DNA of 64,000 nt from Polycladomyces zharkentensis (GTDB lineage: Bacteria; Bacillota; Bacilli; Thermoactinomycetales; JIR-001): contig NZ_JAFHAP010000006.1 in NCBI RefSeq assembly GCF_016938855.1, positions 62,001-126,000 on the forward strand, read 5' to 3'. Position 1 is the stretch's first letter, and every line of letters starts with the position of its first letter. A program made the position numbers and the translations under genes. This document shows positions 7,444 to 51,040 of the stretch, piece by piece. Under the pieces are notes generated by a model, which saw nothing but the letters and a program-made list of their open reading frames with translations, was not told where the DNA came from and ran no database searches.

Positions 7444-7519
<76 letters not shown>

Positions 7520-23717: not shown

Positions 23718-23840
23718 GGTGATCAAGCAGAAGCGCCCCGCTTCTCACCTTTCGACGCATATTTGCGCAGTTGGAAGGTTGTCATCGTCGATGATTCGGA
23801 AGCAAAGTGTGGGCGTGTGCCCGCACTTTTTTTCTTATCC
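23718..23840 (+). promoter_or_regulatory. L20-type ribosomal leader (attenuator) of infC-rpmI-rplT
   Basis: Leader with the GAAGCGCCCCGCTTC hairpin and a terminator AGTGTGGGC-gtgt-GCCCGCACTT followed by TTTTTTC. In B. subtilis the equivalent leader is bound by L20 to cause termination. Arrangement and terminator sequence match that model. Confidence 0.8.
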
Positions 23841-34563: not shown

Positions 34564-34666
34564 TTTGATCCATTGTCACAAAAAGTTTGAAATCTGGATT
34601 CACCTCACCCCAAGCTGATGGAATCGCTTTCACAAAATTTTTAGACAAAAAGAGTAATTGAACCGG

Positions 34667-34696
34667 TTGACATCCGCAAACCGAGGTGACTATAAT
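34667..34696 (+). promoter_or_regulatory. ilvB-operon promoter
   Basis: Consensus TTGACA (34667-34672), 18-base spacer, TATAAT (34691-34696), starting the riboswitch/T-box leader. Confidence 0.88.
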
Positions 34697-34744
34697 AACA
34701 CCTAAATAATCGAAATGGTTCAGTAAATCGGACAACGAGCAGTT

Positions 34745-34936
34745 CTGGTTGGGAGGGTGTCTAGGGTTCCGCCCGCGAGGGGACTGTGACCGAGCGACAC
34801 CAGCACTCGCCGGACGGCGGGTGTACACCGTGAGGATAAAAGCCTCTGCGGCAGGTTCTGACCAGACTCGGTACCTGTGTGTATTTTGTGCTGGGGATCG
34901 AGTCGTCCACCTGTTGGAAGAGGCTTGTTTTTATTG
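34745..34936 (+). promoter_or_regulatory. ykkC-class riboswitch, probably ppGpp type, with terminator
   Basis: Conserved ykkC core: GGTGTCTAGGGTTCCG, GGACTGTGACCGAGCGACACC, ACACCGTGAGGATAAAAGCC. The 3' strand AAGCCTCT (34840-34847), paired to GAGG in the aptamer, is complementary to AGAGGCTT (34919-34926), which is followed by GTTTTTATT. Ligand binding would therefore block a terminator: an ON switch. The ilv context favours the ppGpp subclass over guanidine or PRPP subclasses. Confidence 0.8.
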
Positions 34937-34939
34937 ACG

Positions 34940-35270
34940 AAAAAAACTGATGAGTCCAAAGGCTGTGAAAAGGACGGGAGCCGGATGGCGTGTCACAGAA
35001 AGTCCCGGGTTGATGAGACGGGATCACGCGCCGGTTGTCCCTCTCACCTTGGAGCCGACCATCGAAACGGGATGTAACGGTGCATCCCCGAGTAGGTGTT
35101 CTCCGGTTGTCGCCGTTATCGACGCGGTGTGCTCGCCGAGAGTGCACCGGTGGAGGCCGTTCGCCGCGAGGCGGCGGTGAAGTTGGGTGGTACCGCGAAC
35201 CTTTCGCCCCAATCTAGACGACAGGTGTGTTCGCTGTTGTCAACGGGTGAAAGGTTTTCATTTTTTCAAA
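34940..35270 (+). promoter_or_regulatory. T-box leader of ilvB operon
   Basis: Second regulatory RNA in series. Long stem I region, then the T-box sequence GGGTGGTACCGCGAACC (about 35186-35202). A terminator follows with arms CCTTTCGCCC and GGGTGAAAGG and the tail TTTTCATTTTTTC. By analogy with B. subtilis ilv-leu it should read tRNA-Leu; a CTC occurs in the likely specifier region but I could not fold it with certainty. Confidence 0.88.
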
Positions 35271-35283
35271 GGGGGTTCCAGAA

Positions 35284-37017
35284 TTGTCCACGACAGCAAC
35301 GATGACGACGGATCAGAAACAAGCGTCGACTGATCGTGAGCTGACCGGTTCCGAGATTTTGCTTCGTTGTCTGATTGAAGAGAAAGTGGAATTTATTTTC
35401 GGTTATCCGGGTGGAGCGGTGCTTCCGATTTACGATTCACTGTATTACGGGAGCATCAAGCACATTTTGTACCGCCACGAACAAGGGGCGATACACGCCG
35501 CGGACGGATACGCAAGGGCAACGGGCAAGCCGGGTGTGGTGATTGCCACGTCCGGACCGGGGGCGACCAACTTGGTGACGGGGATTGCCACCGCACAGAT
35601 GGATTCAATCCCGTTGGTGTGTATCACCGGCAACGTCCCGCAAAATCTGATCGGTACGGATGCGTTCCAGGAAGCGGACATCACGGGCATTACCATGCCG
35701 ATCACCAAGCACAGTTATTTGGTGCAGGATGTCAGAGACCTGCCGCGGGTGGTGAAAGAAGCGTTTCATATCGCCACCACCGGCAGACCGGGTCCGGTGC
35801 TGATCGACATCCCCAAGGATGTCTCCAATGCCAAGGCGCCTTTTTCCTATCCGGAGACGGTATCCATCCGTGGGTATCAGCCCACGACAAACCCGCATCC
35901 GCTGCAGATCGAGAAATTGCAACAGGCGATCGCCGAGTCGAAACGACCGCTGATTTTGGCCGGTGGAGGAGTGGTCACCTCCGGAGCCGATCAGCAATTG
36001 ATCGCGTTCGCGGAACGGGCGCAAATTCCGGTGACGACCACATTGATGGGAATCGGTGGCTTCCCCGGCACGCACCCGTTGTGGTTGGGGATGCCTGGGA
36101 TGCACGGGACGGTGGCGGCCAACCGCGCGTTGCTGGAATGCGATTTGCTGATCGGAATCGGCGCCCGGTTTGATGATCGGGTGACCATGGGGCGGATCGA
36201 CAAATTCGCCACGGGGGCCAAGATCGTTCACATCGATATCGACCCCGCAGAAATCGGCAAAAATGTCGACACCTACATTCCGATCGTCGGTGATGTGAAG
36301 CGGGTGTTGGAAACGGCCCTTAAGGACCCGCCGGTCAGTCAGTCCCAAGCTTGGTTGGAAAAACTGAAGGGGCTGAAACAGCAGTATCCGCTCACCTATA
36401 AACAAAGTGACAACATGCTGAAACCGCAATGGGTCATCCAACACCTGTATGAAACGACGGGTGGGGATGCGATCGTCACCACTGATGTGGGTCAGCATCA
36501 GATGTGGGTGGCGCAATATTTCCGCTTCTCCCGGCCGCGTTCGCTGATCAGCTCGGGTGGCCTGGGCACGATGGGCTTCGGGTTCCCCGCCGCGATCGGT
36601 GCGCAGTTGGCCTATCCCGACCGGACGGTGATCTCCGTGACGGGAGATGGTGGTTTCCAGATGACCGCCCAGGAACTGGCCGTGGTGGCGCTGGCCAACA
36701 TTCCCGTCAAAGTGGCCATCATCAACAACCAATGTTTGGGCATGGTCCGGCAATGGCAGGAAGTGTTCTATCAACGCCGCTACAGTGAAGTGGACTTGTC
36801 CGGCAGCCCGGATTTCGTCAAGCTGGCGGAAGCTTACGGCGTCAAAGGTTTGCGGGCACGTACGGTGGATGAAGCACGTCAGGCTTGGCGGGAGGCCCTG
36901 GATCATCCCGGCCCGGTCGTAATCGACTTCCAGGTGGACCCGGAGGAAAACGTCTATCCGATGGTGGCGCCGGGAGCAGGACTGGATGAGATGATGCTGG
37001 GGGATGAAAAAGCATGA
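35284..37017 (+). CDS. ilvB: Acetolactate synthase large subunit
   Basis: ThDP-dependent enzyme making 2-acetolactate and 2-aceto-2-hydroxybutyrate. 577 residues. Catalytic Glu in [22 protein letters not shown]/oxidase-like middle domain, ThDP motif [32 protein letters not shown] start at 35284 with AAAGGGGG eight bases upstream; ATG 35302 is a weaker alternative. Overlaps ilvN by four bases (ATGA). First gene of ilvB-ilvN-ilvC-leuA-leuB. Confidence 0.96.
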
Positions 37018-37520
37018 GACACATCATTTCGATTCTGGTCAACAACCAGCCGCGCGTGCTGGCACGGGTGGCCAGCCTGTTCGGCAGACGCAATTTCAAT
37101 ATCGAGAGCATCAGTGTCGGTGAGTCCGAAGAACCCGGTCTGTCGCGGATCGTGATCGTGACTCACGGAGATGCCCGGACGATGGAACAGGTTTCCAAGC
37201 ATTTGCACAAATTGATCGATGTGATCAAGGTGCAGGATTTGAGCATCCAACAGTCGGTGGCCCGGGAGCTGCTGCTGGTGAAGGTGGGGGCCACTGCCTC
37301 CAATCGGGCGGAGATCCAGGGGATCATTGAACCGTTCCGGGCGTCGGTCGTCGATGTCGGCATCAACAGCTTGATGATCCAGGCAACCGGTGACCGCGAA
37401 AAACTGGATGCGCTCATCGAACTGCTGCGTCCGTACGGCATCAAGGAACTGGCACGGACAGGGATTACCGCCCTGCCGCGCAGCATGCAGATTCAACCCA
37501 AAGCGCAAATGCATGCGTAA
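37014..37520 (+). CDS. ilvN: Acetolactate synthase small (regulatory) subunit
   Basis: Regulatory subunit (ilvH/ilvN) giving valine feedback control to IlvB. ACT domain at the N-terminus ([34 protein letters not shown]) and C-terminal ALS_ss domain ([26 protein letters not shown]). 168 residues. Starts within the ilvB stop codon, ensuring matched stoichiometry. Confidence 0.96.
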
Positions 37521-37578
37521 GGACTTCATCAAAGCGGATCCGTTCACATCACATACATTTTACGGGGAGGAATGCAAC

Positions 37579-38592
37579 ATGGTGAAAATGTACTATGAAC
37601 AAGATGCACAACTGGACGCATTGAAAGGGAAAACCGTCGCAGTGATCGGGTATGGCAGCCAAGGTCACGCCCAAGCGCAAAACCTTAGGGACAGCGGCGT
37701 TCACGTCATTATCGGCCTTCGTCCGGGGCGCTCTTGGGAACAGGCGGAACAAGACGGGTTTGAAGTGTTTGAGGTGGACGAGGCCGTTCGCCGCGCGGAC
37801 GTCGTGCAACTTCTGCTGCCGGATGAAGTGCAGGCCAAGGTGTATCAGGAACAGGTAGCCCCTCATTTGAAATCGGGATCGGCCCTGTTCTTCTCCCACG
37901 GGTTCAACATTCATTTCGGTCAGATCCGGCCGGCAAGCGACGTGGACGTGGTGCTGATCGCGCCAAAGGGACCGGGTCACCTGGTACGTCGCGTCTACGT
38001 AGAAGGTTTCGGTGTTCCGGCATTGATCGCGGTACATCAGGACGCCAGCGGTCAGGCCAAGGAGCTGGGATTGGCTTATGCCAAAGGCATCGGTGCCACC
38101 CGGGCCGGCGTGATCGAAACCACCTTCAAAGAGGAGACGGAAACGGACTTGTTCGGCGAGCAAGCCGTGTTGTGCGGTGGTGTGAGCGAGCTGGTCAAAG
38201 CCGGGTTCGAAACGCTGGTGGAAGCGGGTTATCAGCCGGAAATCGCCTATTTTGAGTGTTTGCACGAATTGAAATTGATCGTCGACCTGATGTATGAGGG
38301 CGGTTTGGCCAACATGCGGTATTCGGTCAGCGACACGGCTGAGTACGGTGACTATTCCAGCGGCAAACGCGTCGTGGGAGAAGCTTCGCGTCAAGCGATG
38401 AAAGAAGTGTTGAAGGAAATTCAGGACGGCACCTTCGCCCGCAACTGGATCGACGAAAACCGGCAAGGGCGCCCCAACTTCCAACGTTTGCGGGAAGAGG
38501 AGAGAAACCATCAACTGGAACGGGTGGGAGCGGAATTGCGCCGTATGATGGCCTGGCTGGACGATAAGAAAAAAGAACCGGTACAGTCTTGA
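37579..38592 (+). CDS. ilvC: Ketol-acid reductoisomerase
   Basis: NADP(H)- and Mg-dependent isomeroreductase acting on acetolactate. Class I short form, 337 residues. Rossmann motif GYGSQGHAQ (24-32), phosphate-binding loop [10 protein letters not shown], catalytic segments [31 protein letters not shown] and [22 protein letters not shown] 37579 preceded by ACGGGGAGGAATGC; the longer frame from 37390 overlaps ilvN and is rejected. Confidence 0.96.
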
Positions 38593-38611
38593 GGACGAAG
38601 GGGGGATGGCC

Positions 38612-40162
38612 ATGCGAACGGTTCAGATCTTTGACACCACTTTGAGGGACGGCGAACAATCGCCCGGCGTCAATCTGAGCACGGAGGAAAAGGTAGAAAT
38701 CGCTCTGCAGCTGGAACGGTTGGGTGTAAATGTGATCGAGGCGGGGTTCGCCGCCTCTTCCCCCGGCGATCATGCGGCTGTCCGCGAGGTGGCGCGGGTG
38801 GTGACCGATGCTTCCGTGGCCAGTCTGTCGCGGGCGGTACAGCGGGATATCGACGCGGCGTGGGAGGCGTTGAAAGAAGCGAAGCAGCCCGCCATTCACA
38901 TCTTTCTCGCCACCTCGCCCATTCACCGTAAATACAAGCTGAGAAAAACGAAAGAGCAAGTGTTGGAGCAGGCGGCAGAGGCGGTGCGGTATGCCAAACG
39001 GTTTTTTCCCGTCGTGGAGTTTTCTCCGGAAGACGCGGGGCGCACGGAGCTCGACTTTCTCTGCGAGGTGGCGGACGTCGTCATCCGGGCCGGTGCCGAC
39101 GTGCTCAACATCCCGGATACGGTGGGATACCTGACACCGGATGAATACGCCAACATCTTTGTGCAACTGCGAGAGCGGGTACCGGCTGTGGAGCGGGTGA
39201 AACTGAGCGCACACTGTCACGATGACCTCGGATTGGCTGTGGCCAACAGTTTGGCCGCTGTCCGGGCCGGAGTGGATCAAGTGGAGGGAGCCATCAACGG
39301 GATCGGAGAACGCGCAGGCAACGCGGCATTGGAAGAAGTCGTGATGGCATTGTATACGCGTCAATCCTATTATCAAGTTACGACTACGATTCGACCGGCT
39401 GAAATTGCACGGACCAGCCGGTTGGTCAGCAAACTGACGGGGATGCCTGTGCCTGCCAACAAGGCAATCGTCGGTGCCAACGCCTTTGCTCACGAATCGG
39501 GCATTCATCAGGATGGCATGTTGAAACACCAGGAAACATACGAGATCATCCGGCCGGAGACTGTCGGATTTTCTCAGACCAAGCTGGTCCTGGGCAAACA
39601 CTCGGGGCGGCACGCATTTCGTGAACGGTTGGAGGCTTTGGGTTATTCGTTATCCGATGAACGGATCAATGCCCTGTTTGTCCGTTTCAAGGAATTGGCG
39701 GACCGTAAAAAGACACTTACCGATGAGGACTTGGTCGCGCTGGCGGAGGAAAAGCAAGGCGAGGTTGCGGAGATTTTCGAACTGGAATCGATCCAGCTCT
39801 CCTATGGCAACCATGCATTGCCGACGGCATCGCTTCGTTTGCGAAACCGTCAAACAGGAGACCAAGTGGAAGAAGCGGCATGCGGCAACGGCTCGATCGA
39901 TGCGATCTTCAAAGCGATCGATCGGGCGACGGGCGAAGAAGTGGAATTGCTCGACTACAAAGTGGCTTCAAACACACAGGGTACGGATGCACTGGGTGAA
40001 GGGTACGTCCAACTGCGTCAAGGTGAGATGACCGTGCAGGGTCGGGGGGTAAGTACCGACGTACTGGAAGCGAGCGCACGGGCGTATATCGATGCAATCA
40101 ACCGTCTGCTGACGCGGAAGCAGGCGAAAAAGGATGCTGCGCTGAATGCGGTGTTGGGATGA
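38612..40162 (+). CDS. leuA: 2-isopropylmalate synthase
   Basis: First committed step of leucine synthesis. DRE-TIM barrel with [13 protein letters not shown] at residues 7-19, metal ligands in [37 protein letters not shown], then a C-terminal leucine-feedback LeuA dimer domain (about 390-510). 516 residues. The second ATG (38612) is preferred because AAGGGGGG sits six bases before it and abuts the first ATG (38606); it also matches B. subtilis LeuA. Confidence 0.95.
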
Positions 40163-40186
40163 AGGCAAACGGAGGGAGAGAAGCAT

Positions 40187-41305
40187 ATGGGAACGGTGAA
40201 AAAAATCGCAGTGCTTCCCGGTGACGGAATCGGTCCGGAAATCATGGAGGAAGCGCTGAAAGTATTGCGAAAGGTGGAAGACCAATTCGGTCATTCGTTT
40301 CAGTTTACCTTCGGGATGGCGGGAGGAGGGGCGGTTGACCGCGTCGGCAACCCGCTTCCCGAAGAGACGCTTTCGCTCTGTCAACAGTCGGATGCCGTGT
40401 TGCTGGCGGCGGTCGGCGGTCCCAAATGGGACAACAACCCGCCGGAGTTGCGCCCTGAGCAGGCATTGCTGGGATTGCGCAAGTCGCTGAACTTGTATGC
40501 CAACCTGCGGCCGGCCGTTCTGTTTGAGGGATTGGAGAATGCCTCCACCCTCAAGCCGGAAGTGGTGAAGGGTGTCGATCTGCTCGTGGTGCGCGAGTTG
40601 ACCGGCGGCATCTACTTCGGTGAAAAGAAACGGGAGCGGTTGGAAGACGGCGAACAGGCAACGGATACGCTGGTGTACCACGAGCGCGAAGTGGAGCGGA
40701 TCGTGCGGCGGGCTTTTGAGATTGCGCGCGGTCGCCGGAAAAAGCTGACCTCCGTAGACAAGGCCAATATTTTGGAAAGCTCCCGCCTGTGGCGGTCGGT
40801 GGTGGACCGCGTGGCACGAGATTATCCGGATGTGCAGGTGGAGCATGTGTTGGTGGACAACTGCGCCATGCAGTTGATCCGCCGTCCGGCCGACTTCGAC
40901 GTGATCGTCACCGAGAACATGTTCGGCGATATTTTGAGTGATGAAACCGCCATGCTGACGGGTTCCATCGGATTGTTGCCGTCGGCCAGCCTGGGTGAGG
41001 GCACGACGGGACTGTACGAACCCGTTCACGGTTCCGCGCCGGACATCGCCGGTCAAAGTGTGGCCAATCCGGCTGCCATGATCCTGTCAGCGGCGATGAT
41101 GCTGCGCCATTCTTTCGGATACGAGGAAGCGGCGACAGCAGTGGAGCAGGCGGTACGCAAGGTGCTGGCCGACGGGCATCGTACCGCCGACCTCGCCGGA
41201 CCGGGTGCGTTGGCGGTCAGCACGGAAGAATTCGGCGATCTCGTCGTGGAAGCGATGAACGCCTATGAACCGGACCCGAAAGTGCCGATGGAAGCCGTCA
41301 TGTAA
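40187..41305 (+). CDS. leuB: 3-isopropylmalate dehydrogenase
   Basis: NAD-dependent oxidative decarboxylase of leucine synthesis. 372 residues. [11 protein letters not shown] start, [10 protein letters not shown], the NAD/metal motif [31 protein letters not shown] and [17 protein letters not shown] with GGAGGGAG upstream. The operon ends here with a terminator; leuC and leuD, which follow in B. subtilis, are not in the window. Confidence 0.96.
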
Positions 41306-41349
41306 TGATATGGAAATCAAATGGTTCCCTCTGGTTCTGAGGAGAATGA

Positions 41350-41384
41350 CACCCGGCGGAAAAACCGCTGGGTTGTTTTGTTTT
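41350..41384 (+). terminator. Terminator of the ilv-leu operon
   Basis: ACCCGGCGG/CCGCTGGGT arms followed by TGTTTTGTTTTG. Confidence 0.88.
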
Positions 41385-41461
41385 GGGCCGATATTTTTGA
41401 CAAAAAAACATCATTTTCAGAAACAATAAAAATCGAACGTTATTGGAAAGGGAGCTGCGAT

Positions 41462-42283
41462 ATGAGTCAACAGAAGAACATGTTGTTTGGGGAAGTCACC
41501 CTGACGCGCGACAGTATCGCTGAGGATCTCCGTCGCCTCGGTTTGCAACCGGGAGCGACCGTCATCGTACACAGTTCGCTTCGGTCGTTGGGATTCGTCT
41601 GTGGCGGACCGGTGGCACTGGTGCAGGCATTGATGGATGTGGTGAGGGAAGAGGGAACCATCGTCATGCCCACATTCACCGGTGATGTTTCCGATCCTGC
41701 GACGTGGGAGAATCCGCCCGTGCCGCAGGCGTGGTGGCCGATCATCCGTGAAACGATGCCCGCTTTTGATCCGCGCATCACTCCTGCTTGGGGAATGGGA
41801 AAAACGGTGGAAGTCTTTCGCACTTGGCCCGGCGTGCTGCGCAGTGCGCATCCCGCATTTTCGTTTGCGGCATGGGGGAAGGAAGCGGAGGCAATCACCC
41901 GGTCGCATTCACTCGATTACGGTTTGGGTGAATCATCCCCGTTGGCACGGATTTATGAGCGGGATGGTCAGGTTTTGTTACTGGGGGTCGGTTTTGATAA
42001 CAACACCTCGTTTCATCTGGCCGAATACCGCGTGAGAGGGGCAAAAACGACGATCGCCGGCGCCCCCGTTTGGAAAGAGGGTGGGCGCAAATGGGTCACC
42101 TATCAAGAGATTCAACACGAAACGGAGCGGTTCCTCGAATTGGGCGAAGCATTTGAGCGGGAGACGGGATGCGTCATCAAAGGCAGGGTGGGGTTGTCGG
42201 AGGCAAAACTGTTTTCACAGCGTGCGGCGGTCGACTTTGCCAAGGAGTGGTTGGAACGACAGCGGCAGAAAGAAACATATTGA
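41462..42283 (+). CDS. Aminoglycoside N(3)-acetyltransferase (YokD-like)
   Basis: AAC(3)-family acetyl-CoA-dependent N-acetyltransferase; whether it acts on aminoglycosides in this host is unknown, since chromosomal YokD-like members can have other substrates. Motifs VIVHSSLRSLGFVCGGP, GTIVMPTFTGD, SAHPAFSFAAWG, SPLARIYERDGQVLLLGVGFDNNTSFHLAEYR. 273 residues. ATG 41462 has AAAGGGAG upstream; the earlier frame runs through the leuB terminator. Followed immediately by a possible IS605-type end. Confidence 0.88.
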   Translation: MSQQKNMLFGEVTLTRDSIAEDLRRLGLQPGATVIVHSSLRSLGFVCGGPVALVQALMDVVREEGTIVMPTFTGDVSDPATWENPPVPQAWWPIIRETMPAFDPRITPAWGMGKTVEVFRTWPGVLRSAHPAFSFAAWGKEAEAITRSHSLDYGLGESSPLARIYERDGQVLLLGVGFDNNTSFHLAEYRVRGAKTTIAGAPVWKEGGRKWVTYQEIQHETERFLELGEAFERETGCVIKGRVGLSEAKLFSQRAAVDFAKEWLERQRQKETY

Positions 42284-50715: not shown

Positions 50716-50747
50716 GAAAAAGAAATTTTCTTCATAATTTTAATCGG

Positions 50748-51040
50748 CTGTGAAGGAGAGGAGTAGGCAGTGCGCCCTTGACAGGGAGGAGGTGCCGCGA
50801 CTGAAAGCACCTCCAGGAAGCGGCTCGCCGAAATTCGCTCCGGAGCTGTCCCCTGAACCTGCAGTAGGGGGTACCGGCGGTGCTCGTTATCGCACGAAAA
50901 GCGGGATGACGAAGACTGGGCGTATCCTGATTCATCGGCCCGAGAGAAGGGGCCGGTTTCATGTTAAGACTTTCGTCGTCCAAAAAGGGTGGTACCGCGA
51001 ATCTCTCGTCCCTTTGGGCGCAGAGATTTTTTTATTACAT
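50748..51040 (+). promoter_or_regulatory. T-box leader of pheST
   Basis: GGTGGTACCGCGAATCTC T-box sequence at about 50987-51004, followed by a terminator AATCTCTCGTCCC ... GGGCGCAGAGATT with TTTTTTA. An ATTC in the upstream stem I region could present a UUC (Phe) specifier but was not proven. Confidence 0.9.

Follow-up and report, generated by a model that had tools for sequence, protein, structure and literature searches.

A ppGpp riboswitch followed by a leucine T-box, a predicted two-input attenuator, precedes ilvBNC-leuAB in Polycladomyces zharkentensis

Results and Discussion

The leader between ilvD and the ilvBNC-leuAB genes of P. zharkentensis is very probably a two-stage attenuator, in which a ppGpp riboswitch is followed by a leucine T-box and the two are predicted to act as an AND gate on the operon. 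It lies at positions 34667-35283 of the window, the 64-kb stretch of contig C6 analysed here (genome size 3.3 Mb), exactly where the initial annotation had placed it. A promoter is followed by an aptamer of the ykkC fold with a competing terminator and then by a T-box with its own terminator; the parts of the leader and the operon genes are on the + strand. The anatomy of the leader, the subclass of its aptamer by sequence, its conservation, the exclusive pairings, the match to a tRNA and the lack of a detectable internal promoter were all observed, and are described in turn.

Operon structure and promoter

The genes are arranged in the order ilvD, ilvB, ilvN, ilvC, leuA and leuB (NCBIfam annotation). 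The interval from the end of ilvD (34563) to the start of ilvB (35284) contains RNA elements and no convincing gene. The first regulated gene is ilvB, encoding the large subunit of acetolactate synthase (35284-37017; TIGR00118, 849 bits), and ilvN, ilvC, leuA and leuB follow at 37014-41305. There is also an ORF of the AAC(3) acetyltransferase family 3' of leuB on the same strand (41321-42283), which scores 193 bits against a curated cut-off of 270.

One sigma-A type promoter, TTGACA-18-TATAAT, was detected at 34667-34696. It matches the consensus at 12 of 12 positions and is the sole one found between 34500 and 35350, in agreement with the single consensus promoter proposed ahead of both modules; shuffles of the region gave 0.4 promoter-like sites expected by chance. 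Eighteen leaders were compared (the window, 16 from the same order and one from outside it), and every one carries a perfect 12/12 promoter at the matching place upstream of the aptamer. The promoter spacer is unusually uniform, being 18 nt long in 16 of the 18 tandem leaders. No internal promoter was found between the two RNA modules in the leader region of the window, and among the 18 leaders the only promoter-like sites in this interval are weak (9/12) and occur in two. Between ilvD and the promoter a terminator-like site was not found, so read-through from ilvD would also meet both gates.

Identity of the first element

The aptamer at 34745-34865 was assigned to the ppGpp type (ykkC subtype 2a) by a match to a ppGpp-type model (34742-34874, 92.5 bits), by covariation and by its fold. 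It has the ykkC core fold and the conserved GCGGCAGGUUCUGA 3' end, and fold and covariation delimit the helices P0 (34745-34754/34856-34865), P1 (34756-34761/34796-34801) and P3 (34832-34835/34843-34846). Membership of the ykkC class, already recognized in the initial annotation, was corroborated by RF00442, which matches 34750-34852 with 48.6 bits (E 1.5e-7). The gathering score of guanidine-I is 63, and a lower value such as this is what a variant subclass should give. When the whole window is scanned with Rfam in the standard way, neither this RNA nor the T-box of the leader is reported, because both matches, though highly significant, are below the gathering scores of their families.

According to published rules for ykkC RNAs, a pyrimidine in place of A49 indicates that the ligand is not guanidine, G96 indicates PRPP and its absence ppGpp (PMC6031431). 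The window aptamer has a C (34795) at the equivalent of C49 of the PRPP structure, where guanidine-I RNAs have A and subtype 2 RNAs a pyrimidine under the same rules, and in our own alignment, whose register against the crystal numbering is approximate, a U (34847) where the PRPP type has its specific G96. Because of this approximate register, the base rules were supplemented with covariance models built from three sets defined by gene context. The guanidine-I set has 15 strong matches; the PRPP-type set has 6 purine-pathway loci, 3 of them next to a guanine aptamer that exceeds the gathering score; and the ppGpp-type set has 25 loci that precede ilvE or an ABC transporter, of which nearly all belong to the same order, with the leaders that precede ilvB left out. 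The ppGpp-type set is putative in its ligand and takes its name from the literature context (branched-chain genes, natA; PMC5912903). The class-wide RF00442 search mostly lists guanidine aptamers, and the search was repeated with the ppGpp-type model.

The window aptamer scored 92.5 bits with the ppGpp-type model, a value raised somewhat by training on mostly same-order sequences, against 46.7 with the PRPP and 31.9 with the guanidine-I model. As controls, a guanidine aptamer of the same order (L004) scored 52.6 with the ppGpp-type model and the PRPP loci 53-54, and ppGpp-type loci of other orders scored 98.1 (L077) and 83.6 (L085). From P0 to P3, 20 pairs changed on both sides within the ppGpp-type set, with 98.6% of the cells paired versus 34-46% when slid.

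A PRPP riboswitch (ykkC 2b) at this place would link nucleotide precursor supply to branched-chain synthesis, and the 2a and 2b aptamers are so much alike that a single base can switch specificity (PMC6031431). It is nevertheless a very improbable identity, since the PRPP-type model is 46 bits worse than the ppGpp-type model and the region of position 96 reads CCUCUGCGG in the window, versus CCCAGGCGG or CCCAGGC-GG, that is CCCAGGC(G)GG, in all 6 PRPP-type loci. Furthermore, a guanine aptamer was not found in the window, the operon is without a purine gene, and 2a RNAs are the ones that typically occur with branched-chain genes (PMC5912903). A guanidine-I riboswitch seems more remote still. 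RF00442 is the sole Rfam riboswitch family that matched, and no separate ppGpp family was returned; however, the match falls short of the gathering score, position 49 is C and not A, the guanidine model is 61 bits worse than the ppGpp-type model, and no gene for guanidine transport or degradation is present in the operon. Model scores and discriminating bases, among them the lack of G96 in the PRPP case, led to the rejection of both candidates. The ppGpp subclass named in the initial annotation has thus stood up to a check set beforehand, in which a covariance preference for PRPP or guanidine was looked for and the ppGpp-type model came out best, with discriminating bases that also fit. The reading of the first element as a ppGpp riboswitch (ykkC 2a), with ppGpp as its predicted ligand, is well supported at the sequence level. 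Within this class, a preference for pppGpp over ppGpp is seen in some aptamers (PMC12373219). The genome encodes a protein of the RelA/SpoT family.

Other RNAs of these kinds were noticed. A second ppGpp-type aptamer of this genome (G000:C10:61640-61748; L033) lies before the branched-chain aminotransferase gene ilvE and is without a T-box; it scores 133 bits with the ppGpp-type model, which was trained partly on it. In a more distant genome (L218), a c-di-AMP riboswitch (357-490) is followed by a terminator-like stretch and, about 520 nt downstream of the riboswitch, by a ppGpp-type aptamer (1009-1114) that precedes ilvE. Two ykkC RNAs on the minus strand (L048:3501-3604 and L089:3501-3614) have a G at the equivalent of position 49, together with the motif CACCUAUUGGCA; their sequences fit neither the guanidine, the ppGpp nor the PRPP type and perhaps represent another subclass. 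Subtype-2-like ykkC RNAs were also seen before membrane-transporter-like ORFs (L224-L228, L231). Around position 96 these RNAs carry CCCAGATGG or CCCAGAAGG, which differ from the CCCAGGCGG of the PRPP type. A ribosomal protein L20 leader is present in the window at 23719-23838 (64.3 bits).

Switching strand and first terminator

Sequence, conservation and fold define a switching strand at 34840-34847, which can serve as the 3' strand of aptamer P3 or as the 5' arm of a terminator, and a terminator 3' arm with a U-rich tract at 34919-34935. The complementarity between 34840-34847 (AAGCCUCU) and 34919-34926 (AGAGGCUU) had been claimed before and is exact over 8 nt, and GUUUUUAUU follows. The switching strand, AAAGCCUCUG, is identical in 18/18 leaders, and the 3' arm varies among them (AAGAGGCUUG, CAGAGGCUUU, CAGGGGUUUG, CGGAGGCUUU, UAGGGGCUUU and others). 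Nearly all of these changes convert G-C to G-U or A-U to G-U; what remains is a single interior mismatch, in the leader from outside the order, together with changes at the arm's ends. Each related leader keeps 8-10 of 10 arm pairs, with a mean of 9.3 over the 18 leaders versus 7.35 for the best shuffled match, so that the pairing, whose conservation had been set as a check, is kept in all 17 relatives. A consensus fold of the entire first terminator from the aligned leaders yields the basal stem only, because the terminator loop is not alignable.

Stepwise lengthening of the RNA in predicted folds indicates that until nt 34922 the aptamer either has the lowest energy or lies no more than 0.9 kcal/mol above the lowest state. 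Up to this point the CCUC of P3 (34843-34846) is predicted to be paired within the aptamer; at 34929 its partner would be the terminator arm, with the terminator state favored over the aptamer state by 6.5 kcal/mol. The folding model thus has the P3 and terminator helices as mutually exclusive. As the aptamer would fold before the terminator arm emerges, binding of a ligand to the folded aptamer can prevent termination.

The leucine T-box

The second module is a T-box leader with stem I, stems II/III and the T-box/antiterminator (34956-35214). RF00230 matches it with 67.4 bits (E 2.2e-14), below the gathering score of 93, and its T-box sequence, GGGUGGUACCGCG, is complete. By its sequence it is to be regarded as a diverged yet complete member of the family, the gathering score being a scoring convention and not a biological feature. 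Its own predicted terminator, a hairpin (35197-35257) with a U tract, occupies 35195-35265; the hairpin has a predicted energy of -31.6 kcal/mol versus -9.8 for the antiterminator segment. These features bear out the full T-box with its own terminator that had been annotated. Comparison of the leaders identified the specifier codon as CUC (35043-35045), present in 18/18 leaders, which confirms the earlier choice of leucine. A tRNA-Leu(GAG) that fits this codon is present in the genome, and its A-CCA end is complementary to the UGGU of the T-box bulge (35188-35191). The window contains another T-box (50741-51016, 102 bits), whose specifier is UUC (Phe), upstream of a pheS-like ORF at about 51065, and a tRNA-Phe(GAA) was found at 7444-7519.

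Distribution of the tandem

The tandem was found before ilvB in 17 of the 42 genomes of the order, this one included, and is conserved in part of the order, across several families. Outside the order it occurs in two genomes (L086; L205) and probably in a third (L217). Other genomes, L077 and L085 among them, have a ppGpp-type aptamer before ilv genes with no T-box found nearby, which shows that the two elements are separable.

Predicted regulatory logic

The ligand, the ON polarity and the AND output are predicted here from the behavior of the two families. Polymerase would start at the single promoter and meet the ppGpp riboswitch first, whose aptamer would fold before the rest of the leader. 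Bound ppGpp or pppGpp would hold P0/P3 and keep 34840-34847 away from 34919-34926, and the polymerase would pass; with the ligand absent, the first terminator would form. At the next gate, uncharged tRNA-Leu(GAG) would read the CUC specifier and the UGGU bulge and stabilize the antiterminator, and charged tRNA would leave the second terminator to form. Full transcription of ilvBNC-leuAB would then need both the stringent-response alarmone and a shortage of leucine. AND logic is the best reading of the leader because there is one promoter ahead of two conserved switches with separate terminators, and the search for an internal promoter gave none.

In the stringent response, uncharged tRNA activates RelA and ppGpp rises. 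The two inputs may therefore be correlated, with uncharged tRNA-Leu itself activating RelA and raising ppGpp, and the leader could be a graded two-step attenuator with no strict AND, in which the first terminator is leaky or the inputs are redundant. The long, imperfect hairpin of the ppGpp terminator is consistent with such behavior, as is the only approximately Boolean output that RNA gates of this kind give at the population level (PMC5912903). We consider a graded device the less likely design, given that separate terminators are conserved in 18/18 leaders, suggesting that both matter. A doubtful extension of the AND gate would add CodY as a third input, through putative sites just upstream of the promoter, to the ppGpp and uncharged tRNA-Leu read by the leader. 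Two CodY-family proteins are encoded in the genome (G000:C11:234037-234567 and C8:32897-33424), and CodY-like sites are present at 34625 and 34636 (34625-34650), though they are weak, with 4 mismatches to the consensus. If CodY did act there, initiation would also respond to GTP and branched-chain amino acids.

Comparison with known systems

The ilv-leu operon of Bacillus is under T-box control. It likewise has a leucine T-box before ilvB, and it differs in that it is not known to have a ppGpp riboswitch in series. The singlet ppGpp riboswitch of Desulfitobacterium hafniense ilvE, which has been used as a (p)ppGpp reporter (PMC12373219), resembles the leader in combining a ykkC 2a aptamer with a terminator on a branched-chain gene, but has no T-box in series. 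The guanine-PRPP tandem, an IMPLY gate, also places a ykkC-fold aptamer in a two-input leader; its ligands are different, its expression platform is shared and its genes are purine genes (PMC5912903).

The closest systems are tandems of T-box and ppGpp riboswitches, which have been described in either order as AND gates (PMC5912903 Fig. 6C, eLife 2018; PMC6031431) with separate expression platforms (PMC6031431). A survey of 2022 in RNA Biol counted 15 cases of ppGpp followed by T-box-Leu and 16 of the reversed order (PMC9481103 Table 2). In these works the AND logic is presented as predicted (PMC9481103) and as needing in vivo confirmation (PMC6031431). The published ppGpp-T box(Leu) tandem shares with our leader the elements, their order, the separate platforms, the Leu specifier, the branched-chain genes and the predicted AND, and no difference in kind was found between the two. 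In the window the first terminator is longer, with its 3' arm 80 nt from the switching strand versus 55-64 nt in the leaders of other genera. The tandem and its AND logic, whose earlier publication the initial annotation had overlooked, have been in the literature since 2018, and the P. zharkentensis leader, which leaves the state of knowledge unchanged, is a further example of this known arrangement. As a natural RNA logic gate it would couple a general alarm signal to the shortage of one particular amino acid. The arrangement is well conserved, being present in several families of one order with the leucine specifier and a perfect promoter each time, and this lineage supplies many natural variants of the published tandem for an in vivo test of the predicted AND output.
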